DNA of 22,060 nt from a virus: IMG/VR virus record IMGVR_UViG_3300050821_001964, positions 1 to 22,060 of that record, one strand, 5' to 3'. The notes below the pieces were generated by a model, which was not told the origin of the DNA, made no database searches, and was given only the letters and a program-made list of their open reading frames with translations. Positions 346-13,416 of the stretch are shown in pieces (the stretch's first letter is position 1; each line of letters starts with the position of its first letter). Both the position numbers and the translations under genes were made by a program.

Positions 346-421
346 GCCGGGGTAGCTCAACTGGCAGAGCGCCGCCCTCGTAATGCGGATGTTGTGAGTT
401 CGATTCTCACCCCCGGCCCCA
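346..421 (+). tRNA. tRNA-Thr (anticodon CGT)
   Basis: The cloverleaf is readable directly. The acceptor strands GCCGGGG (346-352) and CCCCGGC (411-417) pair fully. The D arm is GCTC/GAGC, the anticodon loop CTCGTAA puts CGT at 379-381, and the T arm GTGAG/CTCAC carries the loop TTCGATT. The CCA end is encoded (419-421). It would read ACG codons. The anticodon stem has one mismatch (C376 against T384) at the loop-closing pair. The discriminator base is C, which is unusual for threonine tRNAs, so charging identity is slightly uncertain. It lies 45 bases before tRNA-Arg and is probably co-transcribed with it. Confidence 0.93.
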
Positions 422-466: not shown

Positions 467-543
467 GAGGACGTAGCTCAGATGGATAGAGCGGTCGCCT
501 TCTAAGCGACAGGTCGCGAGTTCGATTCTCGCCGTCCTCGCCA
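467..543 (+). tRNA. tRNA-Arg (anticodon TCT)
   Basis: The cloverleaf is complete. Acceptor strands GAGGACG (467-473) and CGTCCTC (533-539) pair fully. The D arm is GCTC/GAGC, and the anticodon stem GTCGC/GCGAC encloses the loop CTTCTAA with TCT at 501-503. The T arm GCGAG/CTCGC has the loop TTCGATT. Discriminator G and an encoded CCA (541-543) complete it. It would decode AGA, a codon rare in many G+C-rich hosts, and phages often carry this isoacceptor. It sits 25 bases before the HNH gene start. Confidence 0.96.
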
Positions 544-947: not shown

Positions 948-1316
948 ATGGACAAGATCAAGGCGCAAGTCATTGCAGGATATGATGTCGACGGGGTTCC
1001 CGTGACTATTCCAGTCGAAGAAATGGAACTAGGGGATGGCAAACTCGGGTATCTTGATCGGCAAACGATGAAGATTGCCATCCATTCAGACCAACCGGAG
1101 GCCGGCAAGCATCTGATCCTGCTGCACGAGATGATCCACGCCGTGGTCGAAAATATGCAAGGGCAAGGGCTCTGCAGGCGTATTCCGTCAGAATCGTTCG
1201 TGGCAAATTTAGCTGGTGGGTTATTCGGGATGTTGGCCACTTCCGGCATGTGGGTCGGCGTGTCGCCAGAAGAGGCATTGGAATTCATGCTATCGGGCAC
1301 TAGGGAAACGGATTAA
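948..1316 (+). CDS. Small HExxH zinc metallopeptidase-like protein
   Basis: This 122-residue protein carries the zinc-peptidase motif H60-E61-M-I-H64 within a hydrophobic helix. E82, about 18 residues later in a helix-like segment, is a plausible third zinc ligand. This is the general layout of ImmA/IrrE-like and related small phage gluzincins. ImmA-type enzymes cleave phage repressors, but no helix-turn-helix partner is adjacent, so the substrate is unknown. There is no signal peptide. The start at 948 is supported by a strong ribosome binding site and lies 22 bases after the HNH stop. Its last seven codons and stop lie inside the tRNA-Pro gene: the TAA stop (1314-1316) falls in the tRNA D loop. 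A structural or non-catalytic role cannot be excluded. Confidence 0.75.
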   Translation: MDKIKAQVIAGYDVDGVPVTIPVEEMELGDGKLGYLDRQTMKIAIHSDQPEAGKHLILLHEMIHAVVENMQGQGLCRRIPSESFVANLAGGLFGMLATSGMWVGVSPEEALEFMLSGTRETD

Positions 1317-1370
1317 CCCGCGTGATCTGGGATCACGAGATTCCCGGTTCGAATCCGGGGTGCCCGACCA
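1294..1370 (+). tRNA. tRNA-Pro (anticodon TGG) overlapping a protein gene
   Basis: Acceptor strands CGGGCAC (1294-1300) and GTGCCCG (1360-1366) pair fully. The D stem is GGG/CCC with an 11-base loop. The anticodon stem CGTGA/TCACG encloses TCTGGGA with TGG at 1328-1330, and the T arm CCCGG/CCGGG has the loop TTCGAAT. Discriminator A and CCA (1368-1370) are encoded. It would read CCA and related proline codons. The first 23 bases are shared with the end of the metallopeptidase gene on the same strand, so 5' processing of this tRNA would remove the end of that message. Confidence 0.93.
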
Positions 1371-2846: not shown

Positions 2847-3182
2847 AATCTCCGGGCGTACTCTGTGGTGTCCAAGAACACGCCGCTTCCCGCGCGGTGG
2901 CTCGGCAGCCGAACACAATGTACGCTCGGCGCAAGTTTTTAGGTTTACTGGCGTCGGCACGACGGATCGTGCATCGCGACAAGGCATCAGTGGCAAAGTA
3001 CCCTTCCCGGTGGAGCGTGAGCCGTGCGGCGGCAAGAACGTGTAGATTGGGATAGCGATGGAAGCGTGGAGCGGGTCCTCACCGCAAGAGGCACGGCACG
3101 CCCAACCGGGCTGCCAGCTAGTTTGAATCCTGCTTCGCAGCCTACCGGGGACCTAACCCGGACGCCAGTAATGAGATTGCCG
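2847..3182. other. Gap with weak coding potential and strong hairpins before the tmRNA
   Basis: No well-supported gene lies here; one low-confidence 45-codon frame is listed separately. The right part is structured. A 6-bp stem GGCTGC (3109-3114) pairs with GCAGCC (3137-3142). Directly after it, CCGGG (3145-3149) pairs with CCCGG (3157-3161) around a 7-base loop. These hairpins may be part of a precursor of the permuted tmRNA or its leader. Confidence 0.4.
2918..3055 (+). CDS. Doubtful 45-residue frame with a twin-arginine-like start
   Basis: ATG 2918 opens a 45-codon frame whose N terminus reads MYARRKFLGLLA, resembling a twin-arginine export motif (RRxFL). The rest is strongly basic, the hydrophobic stretch is short, and there is no Shine-Dalgarno sequence. 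It is listed only because it is the best frame in this gap. It may equally be non-coding. Confidence 0.2.
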   Translation: MYARRKFLGLLASARRIVHRDKASVAKYPSRWSVSRAAARTCRLG

Positions 3183-3465
3183 TTGAAGTTGCATAATGCC
3201 ATTTCGGACCTGGGTTCAACTCCCAGCACCTCCACCAATTCACGGCGGCTCCGTGTCGGTTTGCGTGTTGGCAACCGATGCGTCCGCCTCCATATGGGGG
3301 TGTATCGGTTTCGACGGGATGCGCGAAGTGCAATGGAGGCAGTGAGCAGGCGACCGACTCTGAAGGCGCAAACCATAACGGCCAACTCTTACGAGGAAGC
3401 CCTGCCGCTGGCTGCTTAGTCAGTGACCGCGCCACCGGGAGCGTGGGAACAGAATCCCGGCGCAA
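3183..3465 (+). ncRNA. ssrA: Circularly permuted (two-piece) tmRNA, SsrA
   Basis: tmRNA rescues stalled ribosomes by acting first as an alanyl-tRNA and then as a message for a degradation tag. The order here is permuted. The acceptor piece comes first: a TTTCGGAC segment (3202-3209), T arm CTGGG/CCCAG with TTCAACT, then CACCTCC-A-CCA ending at 3237. A 58-base spacer (3238-3295) that can fold follows. The coding piece then begins GGGGGTG at 3296 and carries the conserved GGTTTCGACGGG at 3307-3318. GGGGGTG pairs with CACCTCC in all seven positions, with G3-U70 as the single wobble, the alanyl-tRNA synthetase signal. GAAGTG (3325-3330) can pair with CATTTC (3200-3205) as part of helix P2. The tag frame lies at 3381-3419, and a hairpin CCGGGA/TCCCGG (3435-3460) follows it. 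Both outer ends are estimates. Confidence 0.88.
3381..3419 (+). other. tmRNA proteolysis-tag reading frame
   Basis: The frame GCC..TAG encodes ANSYEEALPLAA. The small hydrophobic end (LAA) is what ClpXP-type proteases recognise in SsrA tags. GCC is chosen as the resume codon because the six bases before it, ATAACG, share A-T-A at positions -6 to -4 with the Escherichia coli ATAGTC context. The frame beginning at the nearby GCAAAC (3368) lacks the stop and the LAA ending. The resume codon is therefore well supported but still inferred. Confidence 0.8.
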
Positions 3466-3523
3466 GTCCTTGTTGTGACCCTCCCAGCGAGGAAAAGGAG
3501 TCGCGGAGGATCGGCCAGAGCGG

Positions 3524-3555
3524 GCGCGGTCCATCGGAGCCTTTTTGGGCCGCGC
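3524..3555 (+). other. Stem-loop between the tmRNA and the next gene
   Basis: GCGCGGTCC (3524-3532) pairs with GGGCCGCGC (3547-3555), nine pairs with one G-U, around a 14-base loop that ends in CTTTTT. It ends two bases before ATG 3558. There is no T run after the stem, so it is not a standard terminator. It could mark the 3' processing boundary of the tmRNA precursor or limit translation of the following gene. Confidence 0.4.
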
Positions 3556-3557
3556 TC

Positions 3558-3773
3558 ATGAACATCTGGCAAGCCATCTCCTATATCGCAGCAAGGACGA
3601 ATTGGTCCGTTGAGGAGTTGACCGACGCGAACCAGATAACTGTGGCTGCGGTCAGCAATGCAGTGGTAGCGATCGAAGCGCACGGCGATGAAAATGTGCG
3701 GGGCGCGTACCTGATCTACCGGGATTGGAAGCAGAGCAGATTCGCGGCATCCCTTCAGGCTGTTGGGAAATAA
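3558..3773 (+). CDS. Hypothetical small phage protein
   Basis: This 71-residue protein is read from ATG 3558. An in-frame extension upstream would run through the tmRNA 3' region and is disfavoured. The sequence looks like a compact helical domain and has no recognised motif or signal peptide. A clear ribosome binding site is lacking, since the start directly follows a stable hairpin. The membrane-protein gene starts nine bases downstream, so the two are probably co-transcribed. Confidence 0.5.
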   Translation: MNIWQAISYIAARTNWSVEELTDANQITVAAVSNAVVAIEAHGDENVRGAYLIYRDWKQSRFAASLQAVGK

Positions 3774-4437: not shown

Positions 4438-5034
4438 ATGCTAGGCCCCACCCAACTCGCAAAGGCACTCGGCATCTCGCGCCAGATGATCTATCAGTAT
4501 GAGCGCGAAGGGAAATTGCCAGTCCGCATCGATGGCGGCTGGGATCTCGCGGAAGTGCAGAAGCGCCTGAGTGAGACGCTGGGATCGAAGCGCGGCGGAC
4601 CCCCGAAGCGTGGCGTACCGCAGGTCGTGGTGGATGAGCCGAAGGCGGTAAAGGCTCCAAAGCCGAAGAAGGTCCGGGAGATCTCCGCGCCAGCAGAAAT
4701 AGCGGCTCCCGAAGCGATCAATCCCGAGGATCTCGAAAAGGTCAGCAAGAACGATCTGGAGAAGGCGGTCCTCGCGCACAGGGCGGAAAAAATGCGCCTG
4801 GAGAACGAGAAGATCCGCGGCGAATTGGTTTCGGCGGAGGACGTTCGACAAGCACAGACGGAACGGGCGATGGCCGAAAGGGAATCTCTTCTGAACTGGC
4901 CTGCCCGCATAGCGCCTGAGATGGCGGCAAAGTTCGGCGTTCCCGAAAGGGACATGTTCATCACTCTCGACGTGGAAGTGCGGAAGTATCTGGAGTCCCG
5001 CAGCACATTGGCAGTTCAGGAGAAAGCAGCTTAG
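4438..5034 (+). CDS. Terminase small subunit (Nu1-like)
   Basis: The small terminase binds the phage packaging site and hands DNA to the large subunit. This 198-residue protein begins with a helix-turn-helix of the winged Nu1/excisionase type (about residues 3-30, LAKALGISRQMIYQYEREGKLP). A Lys/Pro/Ala-rich linker follows (about 50-90), then a charged coiled-coil (about 100-145), then a C-terminal helical segment with the LNWPARIAPEMAAKFG pattern typical of small terminases in this group (about 152-190). The start ATG 4438 has only a weak GAAAG upstream. Its stop directly abuts the GTG start of the large subunit, which supports coupling and the assignment. Confidence 0.85.
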   Translation: MLGPTQLAKALGISRQMIYQYEREGKLPVRIDGGWDLAEVQKRLSETLGSKRGGPPKRGVPQVVVDEPKAVKAPKPKKVREISAPAEIAAPEAINPEDLEKVSKNDLEKAVLAHRAEKMRLENEKIRGELVSAEDVRQAQTERAMAERESLLNWPARIAPEMAAKFGVPERDMFITLDVEVRKYLESRSTLAVQEKAA

Positions 5035-7146
5035 GTGCCATCCGCTGTCCAAATCGTTAACGAGTCCTGGAATCAGGGACTCAAGCCACCGCCAATTCTG
5101 AGCGTTTCGGCGTGGGCAGATCGGTATCGGTTCGTCGCGGCGCCTTCGCCACAGCCGGGTGAGTGGCGTACGGAACGGACGCCTTATCTGCGCGGGATCA
5201 TGGATTGCCTTTCCCCCACATCGTCCGCGCGTACGGTTGCAATGATGAAAGCGTCACAGCTTGGGGCAACCGAGGCGGCCCTGAATTGGATTGGGTACAA
5301 GATGCACCAGTACCCGAGTTCCTTCCTGATTGTTCTGCCAACTCAGGGCGTTGCCGAAGAGTGGTCGAAGACGCGCCTTGATCAGATGATGGAGCATTCT
5401 CCCGCGCTGAAAGATTTGATTGCTCCGGCAAAGAGCCGCGATTCAGGCAATACGATCTTCAACAAGAAGATTTCGGGTGGTCGCGGGTTCATCAAGTTCG
5501 CCTGGTCGAGTTCTGCCGCGAAGCAGCGGTCGACGCCGGCCGGCGATCTCGTTCTTGATGAGGTAGACGGTTTCGAAGGTGATGCCGAAGGTGAAGGCGA
5601 TCCGGTCACGTCCCTTAAGAATCGCTTCAAGAACTTCCCTCGCGGCAAAATGCTGATGATCTCGACTCCCGTAGGGGCGTCGACGTCGCGCATCAGCCGG
5701 GAGTTCAAGGCTGGCGACCAGCGGGTATACTTCGTCCCATGTCCTCATTGTGGGCATTACCAGAAGATCAGTTTCAGCCGCCTGAAGTGGCCGAAACGAA
5801 GAGACGATGAGACACGCAAGGACCGCGAGGCCCGCTACGAGATGGCGGGGCTTCTCTGCGTAGGCTGCAACGAACTGATTTCGGAGCGCTACAAGGGCAG
5901 AATGCTTTCTGCCGGCATTTGGGTGGCGACTGCGACCAAGCCAGAATTGGCTGAAACGGGATTCGCCAAGGCTGATCTGCCATCGCTTGAACCGATCTTT
6001 CGCACCATGGAAGAGGAGCGGTGGGTATCGTTCCACCTCCCTGCAACATACAGTCCTCTGGGCTGGTATTCATGGGCGACCATGGCGGCAGATTGGGAAG
6101 CGGCGCAGGGGCAGAATAACCGCACTGCTCTCAAAGTTTTCGTCATGCAGGCGCTCGGGGAGGTCTGGGAGGACGAGCCCGGCGAAGTCATGGACGATGA
6201 GGTACTCTGGCTGCGCCATGAGAAGTATGAGCCTGGCGTTGTGCCAGCGCGTGGTCTGTTCCTCACGGCATTCGTGGACGTGCAGAAATATTCCCTCCAC
6301 TTCGAATTGAAAGCCTGGGGCCGCGGCAAAGAAAACTGGTCGGTATTCTACCAAGTCATCCAATGTGAGACGGATGGCCCAAATCCGAAGCCCCTGGAAT
6401 CGAGCAGCCCGGAACTGTGGGATGCGCTTGACGAGCTATTGGCCCGGGACTGGCAACATGAATCGGGCGTCTCAATGCCCATTATGGTGATGGGAATTGA
6501 TACAGGATTCAGCGCCTCTACCGTTTACGAGTACGCAGCTCGCCATCCCCGTCCGCATCATGACGACCCTACCAATTTCACGCGCATCACGAATGTTCGG
6601 ACAGTGGCATGTACGAAGGGCGAACCGGACAACCTCAAACTGATTCACAGCGTAACGAAGACCGAGGCCGCGCGTGACCGTGGCGGACTTCGTATCTGGC
6701 ACATCGGCACCGGCTTTGCAAAGCAGGAGTTCTATGACGCGCTGAAAATCGTTCCGCTTGAGGGCGGCATCCCGCAGTCTGGCCGCTGTCATTATCCCTA
6801 TCCAGAGCGTGAGTTTTACCGGCAGGTCTGCTCCGAATCGCGGAAGGTGAGTAAGGGAAAGGTTTATTGGGAGCGGGATCCCGCAGTCCGCAATGAGCCG
6901 GTCGATACGCACGTCGGCAATCGGGCGATGGCATCCCTGTGCGGGATTGACGGGCGAATCACCGAAGCCGAATGGGACGGCTTGGAAAAACGGTATGGGG
7001 TCACGCAGCCGAAGGTGCCAGTGATGGCCGTGGCTGTGGTCAGTGAAAGCGAGGAGCCGGAAGCGGTCACGGCCCCTCCTGAAATCGAACGCGAACGCAT
7101 TGAAAGAACGCCGTGGATTCAGCGGCGGAAAGGATGGTTGTCGTGA
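5035..7146 (+). CDS. Terminase large subunit, GpA/lambda family
   Basis: This is the ATP-driven packaging motor and nuclease that fills and cuts DNA at the procapsid portal. The 703-residue protein has a deviant Walker A segment ASQLGATEA at 73-81 and a Walker B LVLDEVDGF with the acidic pair D175-E176. It also has a zinc-finger-like pair C236-x2-C239 and C275-x2-C278, which is characteristic of the GpA group. The nuclease region includes GIDTGFS with D489. The start is GTG immediately after the small-subunit stop (TAGGTG), and length fits the family. The end overlaps the next gene by four bases (GTGA). Confidence 0.96.
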   Translation: MPSAVQIVNESWNQGLKPPPILSVSAWADRYRFVAAPSPQPGEWRTERTPYLRGIMDCLSPTSSARTVAMMKASQLGATEAALNWIGYKMHQYPSSFLIVLPTQGVAEEWSKTRLDQMMEHSPALKDLIAPAKSRDSGNTIFNKKISGGRGFIKFAWSSSAAKQRSTPAGDLVLDEVDGFEGDAEGEGDPVTSLKNRFKNFPRGKMLMISTPVGASTSRISREFKAGDQRVYFVPCPHCGHYQKISFSRLKWPKRRDDETRKDREARYEMAGLLCVGCNELISERYKGRMLSAGIWVATATKPELAETGFAKADLPSLEPIFRTMEEERWVSFHLPATYSPLGWYSWATMAADWEAAQGQNNRTALKVFVMQALGEVWEDEPGEVMDDEVLWLRHEKYEPGVVPARGLFLTAFVDVQKYSLHFELKAWGRGKENWSVFYQVIQCETDGPNPKPLESSSPELWDALDELLARDWQHESGVSMPIMVMGIDTGFSASTVYEYAARHPRPHHDDPTNFTRITNVRTVACTKGEPDNLKLIHSVTKTEAARDRGGLRIWHIGTGFAKQEFYDALKIVPLEGGIPQSGRCHYPYPEREFYRQVCSESRKVSKGKVYWERDPAVRNEPVDTHVGNRAMASLCGIDGRITEAEWDGLEKRYGVTQPKVPVMAVAVVSESEEPEAVTAPPEIERERIERTPWIQRRKGWLS

Positions 7147-8022: not shown

Positions 8023-8297
8023 TGTCAGGCGTAATTGTGCCAATGGGCCAGGCTTCCCCATCTTTGCTGGAGCGCCTGTTTCATGTCCCTGAAACTCTGT
8101 TTGGGTTGATGCGGCGGAAACCGAAGCGCAGCCAGACTTCCAAGCTGTATGTCCTGGAAGTCAACTTCGAAGTGAGGCCGGGCAGTGACGCCGAAATGGC
8201 TCTCAATGAGCAACGGCAATATCTTCTCAACAAGTACGGGATTGACCTCTTCGTAGTCGAGCCAGGATTCAAACTCAAACGCTTCGACGACTTCTAA
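8022..8297 (+). CDS. Hypothetical protein upstream of portal
   Basis: This 91-residue protein is read from GTG 8022 in a one-base overlap with the preceding stop, and its TAA shares one base with the portal ATG. After a short hydrophobic/basic start, residues about 40-91 look like a small alpha/beta domain (a KLYVLEVNFEV strand, then a helix with NEQRQYLLNKYG, then a second strand). No family is recognised. The tight packing on both sides supports it as a real gene. Confidence 0.6.
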   Translation: MSGVIVPMGQASPSLLERLFHVPETLFGLMRRKPKRSQTSKLYVLEVNFEVRPGSDAEMALNEQRQYLLNKYGIDLFVVEPGFKLKRFDDF

Positions 8298-10030
8298 TGG
8301 CCGCCAGAACCATAACGATCAGACCGCAGAGCGCGGAGACGGTAAGCGAAACCGCATCGCGGTTTCCGATGCTGCGACGGGACTGGACTGCGCGGTCGCT
8401 GGAAGACCCGCGTTCTGCCCTTACGCGGCGCTTGCTTGGAGACGTTGAGAGCTTTCGATATGAAGGTGCCACGGCTGGCCGCCGTGTCCATGGATGGTAT
8501 GCCGCTTCGACAGACGCCAATGTCGAACTCATGGGGGCGCTGGTATGGCTGCGCAACCGGGCGCGAGATCTGGTCCGCAATAACCCATATGCAGCTAAGG
8601 CCCTGGAGGAACTGGTAGGTAATACGATCGGTACCGGGATTGTCCCGCAGGCGAAAACAGGCGACCCCGATCTGGATAAGATCATTGACACCGAATGGCC
8701 CTACTTCGCGGAGCAGTGCGACACCCCGCAGCGCTTGGACTTCTACGGGATGCAGTCCCTTGTCCTGCGCTCCACTGCGGAGAGCGGTGAAGAACTGATT
8801 CGCTTCCGTCCGCGTTTGGCGCAAGACAATCTCCGGGTGCCCCTTCAGCTTCAATTGCTGGAAGCGGACTTTCTGGATCAAGCCCGCACCATGGGATTGG
8901 TGAACGGACACGTCATGCAGGGCGTGCAGTTCGATTTGATTGGGAGACGGGAAGCCTATTGGCTGTTCAGTTACCACCCGGGCGGCGTGCTGATCCTTAA
9001 TCCCCGTGGCGGCATTATCAGCCAGCCGGTGCCGGCCGAGCAGATCATGCACGTCTACCGCGTCCTTCGTCCCGGGCAGGTACGGGGGGTGCCGTGGTTC
9101 ACGCCTTCCATGATGGCGTTCCGGGATCTGGACGACTACTGCGATGCGGAGCGAATGAGAAAGAAGATCGAGGCGTGCGTAGTGGCCATGGTGACGCAGA
9201 CCGAAGGCGCATTGGGATCTCCATTCGGCATCAACAAGGACATGGACCCCATCACCAGTAAGCCTGTGGAGAATTTCGAACCCGGCATGGTCGAGTACAT
9301 GAAACCCGGGCAGGATGTGAAATTCAACAACCCTCAGGCCACCGGCGGGTACCGCGAATACAAGATGACCGAATTGCAGGGCATCATGGCAGGCATCGGG
9401 ATGCCCTATGAGCTGGGCACTGGCGATATGAGCCAAGTCAACTATTCCAGTTGGCGCGGCGGAATGCTGGGGCTCCGCAACAACGTGGAAAACCTGCGCT
9501 GGCTCACAATGATCCCCCAGTTTGCAATGCCGGTGCGTCGGCGGTTCATCGACACCTTGGTACTTATCGGAAAGATCCCCGGCCGAGTATTGACGGATCC
9601 GTCCGTCCACCTCTATTCCACGCAATGGACGGCACCGCGCTTCGAATCCGTCGATCCGGTGAAGGACGCCGACGCGGTCCTCAAGGATATTCGCATGGGC
9701 CGAAAGACGTGGTTCGAGGCTGTCATTGAGAACGGGTTTGACCCTGCAGTGCAGATTCAGCAGATTGCACTCTTCAACAAACTTCTGGACAAATTTGAAA
9801 TCATCCTCGATTCCGATCCGCGCAACACCACCCTCCGCGGCCAGGAACAAGCTGCGGGAACAGAGGAGCGCACTCCTACCTCCAAAGCGGTTCCCGGAAC
9901 GGTCAAGAATACAGCCCTTACCGAAGAGGATTTCGCCGACGTCAAGGAGTTGATCGAGTCCGGCCAGAAGAGATGGCGCATGGAAGCCATGTCAACGCGC
10001 AGCCTTACGCAGCGCACCTTCGTTTCGTAG
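8297..10030 (+). CDS. Portal protein, lambda family
   Basis: The portal forms the dodecameric ring at one capsid vertex through which DNA enters and leaves. The 577-residue length fits the lambda gpB-type group. Recognisable blocks are an N-terminal WYAASTDANVELMG segment, then LRNRARDLVRNNPYAAKALEELVGNTIGTGI-type sequence, then SGEELIRFRP, and a central region (about 320-400) with MPYELGTGDMSQVNYSSWRGG, typical of this family. The start ATG 8297 overlaps the previous stop by one base. The C terminus (after about 510) is low-complexity and charged, and probably faces the head interior. The ferritin-like gene starts 11 bases downstream. Confidence 0.95.
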   Translation: MAARTITIRPQSAETVSETASRFPMLRRDWTARSLEDPRSALTRRLLGDVESFRYEGATAGRRVHGWYAASTDANVELMGALVWLRNRARDLVRNNPYAAKALEELVGNTIGTGIVPQAKTGDPDLDKIIDTEWPYFAEQCDTPQRLDFYGMQSLVLRSTAESGEELIRFRPRLAQDNLRVPLQLQLLEADFLDQARTMGLVNGHVMQGVQFDLIGRREAYWLFSYHPGGVLILNPRGGIISQPVPAEQIMHVYRVLRPGQVRGVPWFTPSMMAFRDLDDYCDAERMRKKIEACVVAMVTQTEGALGSPFGINKDMDPITSKPVENFEPGMVEYMKPGQDVKFNNPQATGGYREYKMTELQGIMAGIGMPYELGTGDMSQVNYSSWRGGMLGLRNNVENLRWLTMIPQFAMPVRRRFIDTLVLIGKIPGRVLTDPSVHLYSTQWTAPRFESVDPVKDADAVLKDIRMGRKTWFEAVIENGFDPAVQIQQIALFNKLLDKFEIILDSDPRNTTLRGQEQAAGTEERTPTSKAVPGTVKNTALTEEDFADVKELIESGQKRWRMEAMSTRSLTQRTFVS

Positions 10031-10533: not shown

Positions 10534-13416
10534 ATGTCTCTCATGGGTAAAAAGACCGTGGAGGAACTGGGCGCGATTGGCGTCCACCATACCCCTGTCG
10601 ACAAGACGGGATCGTGGGATGCCGGGGCCAACCTGAAGCGCATGGGGGACTCTCCATCGAAAGCAGCGCTCCACGACATGCACGCCTGGGTCGATGACAG
10701 CATGGACCAAACGAAAAAAAGCGCTTACAAATTGCCGCACCATAACGTGAACGACAACGGAACGGTGGGTGCGGCCAACATGAGCGGCGTCGAATCCGCC
10801 ATGGGGCGACTGAACGGCGGCGGCTTGGATATCCCGGCCGAGGACAGGGCTGGCGTCCATTCCCACTTGGCCGCCCACTATAAAGATGCAGGAATGGAGG
10901 CACCCGAATTGAAAAGCTCTGCCGAAGGAATTGACCCGTTGGCTCTCACTGGTACGGATTACGTTACCAATTTTCTGACCCTCGTGATGGGGAACAAAGA
11001 AAAGGCGCTCACCGCCAAGGCGCAGATATTAGCAGCGCTGGTGGACCCGAAGTCGCAGAGCACGCTTTTGGACGTTCTGCGGAAGGACGCGGGCGGTGCT
11101 CAGTTCTTCGGTGCTCCCGCTGCAAAGATGGCTGCGGATGGCGACTGCCCGGAATGCGACGGCACTGGCAAGGTGGACGGCGAGACCTGCCCGGAATGCG
11201 GCGGTACAGGCGAAGCCCCGGATGCGCAATTCGTAGCGAGCACGGCCAACGATAAAGACGGCACCATCGACTGCGTCTGGTATGGCGGTGCCACCGTCCC
11301 GAGAATCGACCAGGAATCCGGCGACCCCTACATGCTGAATCTCGACATGGACGGTTGCCGGATGGGCAGGCTCAATGCCGGCGCTCCAATCTTCGACACC
11401 CACTTTACCGGCGACGATTTCAAGTCGATTCTGGCCAACCTTGTAAGCGGCAAGATCGGCACCAAGGCGCAAGTCGGCGTAGTCCAGAAGGCATGGTCGG
11501 ACGGCCCAAAGGGCATGGCCACTCTCCAGTTCGATACGGCCACCCCGGACGGCGCCGAGTTGTACCGCAAGGCCAAAACCGGCATCGTGCGCAATCTCAG
11601 TTTCGGCGCCTGGATTTACAAAAAGGAAAAGCAGAGCCCTAATCAAGCCCCCACCTCCAAGGTGAGCGCACAGACCGAAGGGCCAGGAGCGGAAGGACGA
11701 GCGCCAGATATCTCGGCGTTCACGGCTACCGATTGGGAGCCATTCGAGATTTCACCGGTCACTATTCCGGCAGATTTCACAACGCAATTTCTGTCAGCCC
11801 AGCCTCACGGCCAGGGTCAAGCAGCAGCACGGGCAACTAGCCCAATGAAGGAGCAACCTGTGGAACCTAACACCCAGGACGCGGGCGTAGAGGCCCGTCA
11901 GAAAGAAGTGCAGCTCGCGGCCACTGCCGCGGCTGACAGCGCAGTAAAATCGGAGCGGTTGCGCGTGGCGGATATCACTGCTCGTGCGACCAAGTTTCTC
12001 ACCGTTCTTGGGCAACCTTTCGTCCAGAAGTTCGTTGACGAAGGGAAGACGGCCGACGAATTTAGCATCGCGGCGCTTGCCGCCCTCGCCGAAAAGGGTC
12101 AAATGGGGACCGACGGGACTCAAGTTCCGATTCAGGGAGATGTTACCATCACTCGGGACGGTCGGCAGACGGTTCGTGAGCAGATGGAAGCATCCATCCT
12201 GTTCCGCCTCAATAGCAACTTCTACAGTGATTGGGGAAAGGCATTCAACCACGAAGGCGTTGAGCAGCACTTCCACCGAGACGATTCCGACAAGCACGAC
12301 CGGATGAAATCGGCGCAGAAGGAACTGGCGGCCAAATCCCGCGAATTTGCCAATTACTCTCTCATCGACATGGCGCGTGAGTGCCTGTCCATGTCTGGAG
12401 TGCAGGTGAAGCGGTTATCGAACAGCGAGATTGCCGAGCGGGCACTCAAAGGTGCAATGCCCGAGACGATGCGCCCCCGTGAATATGGCGACGTCAGCTT
12501 CTTCGGAGGTGGCGCCGAGACCACGAGCGACTTCCCGTCGATCCTCGCGAACGTCGCGAACAAGACCCTGCGACAAGCCTACGAGGCTTATCCCCGCACG
12601 TTCCAACCCTTCTGCCGGCAGGTCACGGCGCAGGACTTCAAGCCGATCAACCGCGTGCAGTTGAGTGACGCGCCGACCCTGAAGAAGCTCAATGAAAAGG
12701 GCGAATATACCCGCGCTAACCTGAGCGACACGAATCAGAGCTATTCGCTCCAGACCTTCGGTAAAATCACCTCGATCACCCGCAAGGCCATCATCAACGA
12801 CGATCTGAACGCCTTCACTCGCGTCCCCGGTCTCTTGGGAGTCTCGGCGGCACAGATGGAGTCGGATACGGTTTGGGCCGTGCTCACCAGCAATCAGGTG
12901 ATGGGCGAAGACGGCCTGGCCTGCTTCGTCGCCGGCCACAACAATTACTTCACCGGCGCGGGCAGCGCCCTGGCTCTCGGAGCCGCCATTCCGCCAACCG
13001 GCCTCACTCAAGGCCGTGCCAAGATGCGCCAGCAGACCGCGCAGAACGGCACGCACCTGAACTTGATTCCCCGGTTCGTCTTGGTCCCGACGGTCCTGGA
13101 AACCACGCTTCTGCAAATGATCGCTCCGCTGAACATCGCATCCACCGACGTGACCAAGGTTGTGCCGGAGTGGGTGCGCTCTACCGTTCCGGTTGTCGAG
13201 CCCCGTCTCGACGCCAACAGCACCACCGGTTGGTATGTGGTAGCTGACCCCGCTCAGATCGACACGATTGAATACTGCTATCTGGAAGGCCAGACTGGCG
13301 TGTACATCGAGACTCGTCAAGGTTGGGAAATCGACGGTGTCGAAATTAAGTGCCGTGAAGATTTCGCAGCGGCGGCCCTCGATTTTCGCGGCCTGCAATT
13401 TAACGCCGGCGTGTAA
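10534..13416 (+). CDS. Prohead protease / major capsid protein fusion
   Basis: This 960-residue polyprotein combines capsid maturation protease and shell protein. Residues 1-125 form a charged helical domain common at the head of such fusions. Residues 205-226 hold two CxxCxGxG motifs like half a DnaJ zinc finger. About 245-415 is a serine protease of the phage prohead type, with likely catalytic H290 (FDTH) and S356 (RNLSFGA) and the closing WEPFEISPVTIPADF block. About 420-640 is an Ala/Lys/Glu-rich helical, scaffold-like segment. From about 665 the sequence matches the Mu gpT-like HK97-fold capsid protein. AGGAGG six bases before ATG 10534 sets the start. Self-cleavage of the delta/scaffold part would free the capsid subunit. 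An internal ribosome binding site may provide another route. Confidence 0.92.
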   Translation: MSLMGKKTVEELGAIGVHHTPVDKTGSWDAGANLKRMGDSPSKAALHDMHAWVDDSMDQTKKSAYKLPHHNVNDNGTVGAANMSGVESAMGRLNGGGLDIPAEDRAGVHSHLAAHYKDAGMEAPELKSSAEGIDPLALTGTDYVTNFLTLVMGNKEKALTAKAQILAALVDPKSQSTLLDVLRKDAGGAQFFGAPAAKMAADGDCPECDGTGKVDGETCPECGGTGEAPDAQFVASTANDKDGTIDCVWYGGATVPRIDQESGDPYMLNLDMDGCRMGRLNAGAPIFDTHFTGDDFKSILANLVSGKIGTKAQVGVVQKAWSDGPKGMATLQFDTATPDGAELYRKAKTGIVRNLSFGAWIYKKEKQSPNQAPTSKVSAQTEGPGAEGRAPDISAFTATDWEPFEISPVTIPADFTTQFLSAQPHGQGQAAARATSPMKEQPVEPNTQDAGVEARQKEVQLAATAAADSAVKSERLRVADITARATKFLTVLGQPFVQKFVDEGKTADEFSIAALAALAEKGQMGTDGTQVPIQGDVTITRDGRQTVREQMEASILFRLNSNFYSDWGKAFNHEGVEQHFHRDDSDKHDRMKSAQKELAAKSREFANYSLIDMARECLSMSGVQVKRLSNSEIAERALKGAMPETMRPREYGDVSFFGGGAETTSDFPSILANVANKTLRQAYEAYPRTFQPFCRQVTAQDFKPINRVQLSDAPTLKKLNEKGEYTRANLSDTNQSYSLQTFGKITSITRKAIINDDLNAFTRVPGLLGVSAAQMESDTVWAVLTSNQVMGEDGLACFVAGHNNYFTGAGSALALGAAIPPTGLTQGRAKMRQQTAQNGTHLNLIPRFVLVPTVLETTLLQMIAPLNIASTDVTKVVPEWVRSTVPVVEPRLDANSTTGWYVVADPAQIDTIEYCYLEGQTGVYIETRQGWEIDGVEIKCREDFAAAALDFRGLQFNAGV
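11848..11862 (+). promoter_or_regulatory. Possible internal ribosome binding site and GTG start
   Basis: AAGGAG at 11848-11853 lies six bases before an in-frame GTG at 11860 (residue 443), exactly where the protease domain ends and the scaffold-like segment begins. An ATG (11845, residue 438) overlaps it. Separate production of the scaffold-capsid part from here would mimic lambda C/Nu3. This is inferred from spacing only. Confidence 0.35.

Follow-up and report, generated by a model that had tools for sequence, protein, structure and literature searches.

What does a bacteriophage gain from an RNA that rescues stalled ribosomes, and can such an RNA be encoded in two pieces in inverted order? 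The question is raised by the window, which is the entire stretch of DNA analysed here, an IMG/VR virus record of 22,060 bases (a 22-kb fragment). A phage-borne, circularly permuted tmRNA carrying the tag ANSYEEALPLAA had been proposed at this locus from its letters.

Anatomy of the tmRNA gene

The proposal was borne out by two calls. Model RF04321 (tmRNA_permuted) matched positions 3176-3419 with 96.9 bits (cut-off 47, E 5e-18, whole window searched), and ARAGORN reported a permuted tmRNA (tmRNA*) at 3145-3510 with the tag ANSYEEALPLAA. The following elements were located:

3145-3237 (+), acceptor piece, with the P2 3' strands, T arm, acceptor 3' strand and CCA (ARAGORN; RF04321 from 3176; covariation)
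3210-3226 (+), T arm, stem 3210-3214/3222-3226, loop UUCAACU (compensatory change in three of five pairs, four phages)
3238-3295 (+), intervening sequence of 58 nt, a long hairpin with outer stem 3244-3248/3284-3288, removal expected (fold z; shape in relatives)
3296-3510 (+), coding piece (ARAGORN; 3' end approximate, 3465 in the original prediction and 3510 by ARAGORN)
3296-3302 (+), 5' acceptor strand GGGGGUG, paired with CACCUCC at 3227-3233, with G3-U70 (sequence)
3303-3343 (+), D-loop-like segment with UUCGACGGG (3310-3318), then the P2 5' strands (RF04321; covariation)
3381-3419 (+), tag reading frame ANSYEEALPLAA and stop TAG (ARAGORN; tags of relatives)

The order on the plus strand, with the T arm and CCA piece followed by the intervening sequence and then the coding piece, is that of a two-piece tmRNA. 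The CCA end of the acceptor piece occupies 3235-3237, preceded by a discriminator A at 3234, while the 5' end of this piece is approximate, 3145 being the ARAGORN boundary and 3176 the beginning of the RF04321 match. The P2 pairing joins 3315-3321 with 3200-3206, 3328-3333 with 3189-3194 and 3338-3343 with 3176-3181, and the tag frame has a hydrophobic -AA end before its stop codon. The coordinates originally given proved correct on the sequence, in which the seven-base pairing of the two halves, with its G3-U70, is also seen. An ORF listed from a GTG at 3423 (3423-3770) directly follows the tag and has no PHROGs match; its 5' end overlaps the coding piece, so that its true start probably lies downstream.

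In contrast to RF04321, the one-piece model RF00023 scored only 23.8 bits (cut-off 47) and covered only the tRNA-like half. Downstream of 3214 on the plus strand there is no further T-loop motif nor, before position 5000, a second CCACCA end; hence the acceptor end does not lie 3' of the tag. A tmRNA model thus matched in its permuted form, with the standard one below cut-off, and no non-permuted acceptor end was found past the tag.

A tRNA 3' half preceding a standard tmRNA can also satisfy the permuted model, and this accounts for each inspected RF04321 match above cut-off in Acidobacteriota genomes. Matches above cut-off were present in 13 of 396 genomes, at 53-72 bits. The 10 loci that were fetched are one-piece tmRNAs by Rfam, and were rejected as native permuted ssrA genes; in most of them the model borrows the T arm of a tRNA-Asp immediately upstream, and in L196 the upstream neighbour is a second one-piece tmRNA. 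The remaining three of the 13, outside the fetched loci, were judged by equal span. For the window this explanation can practically be dismissed, for ARAGORN called no tRNA at 3145-3237, neither a one-piece tmRNA nor a downstream acceptor end is present, and the two halves covary in four phages. The element is a permuted two-piece tmRNA gene.

Counts of permuted genes must exclude cases of the above kind, in which a tRNA upstream of a one-piece tmRNA yields spurious RF04321 matches (loci L194-L203). One of these loci, L196 from Acidobacteriota genome G483, has tandem one-piece tmRNA matches on the minus strand at 1264-1617 and 1696-2028 (155 and 110 bits), and a tandem duplication of this type is an arrangement that could give rise to a permuted gene.

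Homologues and covariation

Pattern scans revealed homologous permuted tmRNAs in three further phage contigs, namely L193 (59.8-kb record), L154 (63.6 kb) and L158 (18.3 kb). The first two are 77% identical to the window tmRNA over ∼235-250 nt, and L158 is 69% identical over ∼300 nt. Their tags are ANSYENALPLAA, ANNTVALPMAA and ANQPMALPMAA, the last being that of L158, read by eye from the alignment, where ARAGORN put the resume codon earlier. The frame is intact in all four phage tmRNAs, and a tag ending in ALP(L/M)AA is common to them. An exact-tag search of viral contigs gave no match, nor did a DNA similarity search with the tmRNA among annotated phages. A further candidate, L217, was rejected as a pattern match by chance, lacking a tmRNA.

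Six helices were defined on the window sequence (acceptor, T stem, three P2 parts and the spacer outer stem), and their 36 pairs are 96.5% paired across the four phages, compared with at most 55% for slid versions of the structure on the same four-sequence alignment. Similarly, the covariation score was 0.366, against 0.056-0.153 for the slid structures. Eight pairs, a modest count drawn from four related sequences, are altered on both sides and fall in the middle P2 part, the T stem, the acceptor and the spacer stem; in the remaining two P2 parts no pair varies on more than one side. All seven acceptor pairs are retained, with one A-U/G-C swap, and G3-U70, the alanine identity pair, is invariant. 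The pairing, for which a lack of conservation in related phages had been named as a refutation, is therefore kept through compensatory changes in three other phages. The anatomy, homology and covariation of the phage tmRNA are thus shown by the sequences themselves.

The 58-base spacer had been described as foldable, and its fold in the window, taken over 57 nt, surpassed that of every one of 200 shuffled sequences (z -4.1). A single long hairpin is formed in all four phages (z -4.1, -3.8, -3.6 and -2.8), with a similar shape in L193, L154 and L158 and a C-G/G-C swap in the outer stem. The spacer, although presumably discarded, is thus structurally conserved.

The patchy presence of the gene among relatives, and the P2 mismatches that occur in single members of the four-phage group, would suit a recently acquired gene in decay, devoid of function. 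However, the four copies, diverged as they are, show compensatory changes and have kept their tags intact, which indicates selection within the group, and we regard decay as unlikely.

Genomic setting

PHROGs names in the window include the terminase small and large subunits, portal, head protein and tape measure. Genes referred to in the text are as follows:

346-421 (+), tRNA-Thr(CGU) (ARAGORN, RF00005)
467-543 (+), tRNA-Arg(UCU) (ARAGORN, RF00005)
1294-1370 (+), tRNA-Pro(UGG) (ARAGORN only)
4438-5034 (+), terminase small subunit, the first packaging gene past the tmRNA (phrog_57, 1.7e-23)
5035-7146 (+), terminase large subunit (phrog_15, 3.8e-194)
8297-10030 (+), portal protein, the query for relatives and hosts (phrog_21, 4.6e-85)

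The tmRNA had been placed beside three tRNAs; these exist but are located 1.8-2.8 kb upstream, and are not adjacent to it. Large tRNA arrays (∼9-20 tRNA genes) accompany a permuted tmRNA in other viral contigs (L128, L135, L139, L168 and L183). Elsewhere in the window, a 960-aa ORF at 10534-13416 joins a head maturation protease region to the major head protein (phrog_4523, phrog_133). The surroundings of the tmRNA gene yielded no consensus sigma-70 promoter.

A search with the terminase detected no close viral relatives, and the portal was therefore used for this purpose. It yielded 80 kept relatives in IMG/VR, at ∼70-77% identity. Among the 43 virus records checked from this set none has a permuted tmRNA, so that the gene appears dispensable to the phage family. 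The records of L193 (G730) and L154 (G301) share the portal (62-65% and 61-63%, respectively), capsid and terminase with the window. The tmRNA lies 1 kb upstream of the terminase genes in the window, ∼30 kb downstream of them in G730 and ∼45 kb downstream in G301, and in its shifting placement resembles an accessory gene that can move.

ssrA is a frequent integration site of genomic islands (PMC11915505), and G301, one of the related records, encodes a tyrosine integrase. The phage gene might accordingly be a piece of host ssrA, captured as an att-site remnant by an integrating phage or else the product of a misjoined contig, and in either case serve no purpose for the phage. Yet neither acceptor strand of the gene is truncated, its longest exact run shared with any of seven host ssrA sequences is only 9-13 nt, and its homologues in three other phage contigs occupy differing genome positions. 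Moreover, the G301 integrase adjoins a tRNA-Pro, 6-7 kb away from the tmRNA. Capture is consequently very improbable.

The G301 region in question contains the tyrosine integrase (L191, 1431-2621), followed by tRNA-Pro(UGG) at 62696-62772 of G301 and then by an apparent host alpha/beta-hydrolase gene; it is a probable prophage attachment site.

Inferred host and its ssrA

Portal relatives in bacterial genomes all came from Acidobacteriota (7 of 7), labelled mostly Bryobacterales, Bryobacteraceae or Solibacteraceae, and these portal matches point to Acidobacteriota (Bryobacterales) as the probable hosts. One-piece ssrA was above cut-off in five of six host-group genomes, and in the sixth it is cut by a contig end. 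The apparent absence of a standard tmRNA from G046 was rejected, its truncated ssrA being a contig-end effect. The host-group tags read ANQQFAYAA, ANTQFAYAA, ANNMQFAYAA and ANNTQFAYAA. RF04321 gave no match above cut-off in 257 genomes of Bryobacterales, and no genuine permuted ssrA was found in these or in the 396 Acidobacteriota genomes. The comparison with host ssrA that had been recommended thus shows a one-piece form and different tags in the inferred hosts.

The one-piece ssrA of Bryobacterales (L096-L100, L104-L115) has the tRNA-like core motifs and UUCGACGGGAU in common with the phage tmRNA. In contrast to the latter, which is permuted and encodes ANSYEEALPLAA, it is not permuted, and its tags end in FAYAA or FAFAA. 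In the segments compared the two are ∼50-57% identical, no closer than the phage tmRNA is to other permuted tmRNAs.

Relationship to known permuted lineages

The window tmRNA agrees with the RF04321 family in gene order, tRNA-like domain, P2 and tag. Neither it nor any of its three relatives reaches the cut-off of a permuted lineage model, however. The window scored 35.9 bits on the alphaproteobacterial model (RF01849, cut-off 50), 52.8 on the betaproteobacterial model (RF01850, 84) and 40.4 on the cyanobacterial model (RF01851, 70); the ranges for the four were 24.9-35.9, 52.8-65.8 and 40.4-45.4 bits, with all four under all three cut-offs. In the same runs the beta model gave 127 and 152 bits for two further permuted tmRNAs of viral origin.

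The four phage tmRNAs are mutually 69-84% identical and share at most 59% identity with the other permuted and host tmRNAs compared, with no clear affinity to either kind in the comparison set. In the tree, the four together with two divergent permuted sequences group at 100%, while the four alone receive 44% support, a deeper origin not being separated. By sequence identity, the four phage tmRNAs form a distinct group.

A bolder interpretation would have this group represent a phage-specific permuted lineage outside the alpha, beta and cyano types, perhaps permuted independently, that works in Acidobacteriota possessing only one-piece genes and replaces the host tag by the proline-containing ALP(L/M)AA, thereby altering the choice of proteins destroyed during infection, or the rate of their destruction. 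We put this forward tentatively, as a proposal that may well prove wrong.

Proposed function of the phage tmRNA

The gene probably encodes a functional two-piece tmRNA that takes part in trans-translation during infection, borrowing host factors and adding the phage tag. From established tmRNA biology we infer the likely course of its processing, charging, use of host SmpB and tagging, as well as its benefit to the phage. A single precursor would be transcribed from the gene; RNase P would cleave 5' of G3296, the CCA at 3237 would be released by the 3' tRNA-processing enzymes of the host, and the 58-nt hairpin spacer would be lost, leaving two pieces that the acceptor and P2 helices would hold together. 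Host AlaRS would charge the molecule with alanine by way of G3-U70. Neither the window record nor 36 other viral records with permuted tmRNAs contain an SmpB gene, and function would thus depend on that of the host. Host SmpB and EF-Tu would then bring the phage tmRNA to ribosomes stalled on broken mRNA, whereupon the ribosome would move to the tag frame, append ANSYEEALPLAA and terminate. The phage would gain by keeping ribosomes free and by tagging according to its own rules as host mRNA, and possibly host ssrA, disappear.

An imposed phage tag, or a replacement of host ribosome rescue, as had been suggested, would be consistent with the differing tag. Unlike the inferred host tags, the phage tags carry a conserved proline four residues from the C-terminus, and one may guess that proteins so tagged could be degraded differently.

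The phage RNA could instead be a tmRNA-shaped decoy or inhibitor that takes up host SmpB or AlaRS, damping host trans-translation rather than tagging proteins. Mycobacteriophage DS6A is described as having a tag-less tmRNA that consists of the tRNA-like domain only; such a molecule inhibits tmRNA, and a role as decoy or inhibitor was suggested (PMC4131195, PMC11915505). Besides this precedent, the gene form and tag of the phage differ from those of the host. A decoy, however, would need no tag, and in the four phages the tag frame is open with a common C-terminal motif and the resume region is also kept. A decoy role is therefore improbable, though less so than decay of the gene, and trans-translation with the phage tag is the preferred reading.

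Significance of the phage-borne permuted tmRNA

The original prediction called a permuted tmRNA in a phage accessory block beside three tRNAs unusual. The gene is real, but it is not singular: methylophage Melnitz carries a permuted tmRNA, and an ARAGORN screen of 18,146 phage genomes detected 53 two-piece tmRNAs, 50 of them from aquatic samples (PMC9004378). In the present work, a narrow permuted pattern was found in 72 further IMG/VR viral contigs, 69 of which were confirmed by ARAGORN. The tmRNAs of the mycobacteriophage Bxz1 group and of Bacillus phage G are of the one-piece gene form, unlike that of the window. As in the window, the tmRNA of these phages is carried by the phage itself (PMC4131195).

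Melnitz and marine myophages, like the window phage, have the permuted two-piece form in the phage genome, and the tmRNA lineage of Melnitz differs from that of its host (PMC9004378), as does that of the window phage from its inferred host. Melnitz is nevertheless a marine myophage with a tmRNA of alphaproteobacterial type and a glutamine riboswitch (PMC9004378), whereas the window contig has soil phage contigs as relatives, and its inferred hosts, Acidobacteriota, have one-piece tmRNA genes. Permuted tmRNAs in phages were thus already known; uncommon here is their occurrence in a soil-related, Acidobacteriota-linked phage whose inferred hosts use the other gene form.

If the host inference is right, one cell would hold its own one-piece tmRNA together with the two-piece tmRNA of the phage, each with a different tag, and these coexisting forms would test, in nature, how a phage profits from a ribosome-rescue RNA of its own. 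The group may also represent a permuted tmRNA beyond the three usual lineages, and as such bears on how often the gene has been permuted.
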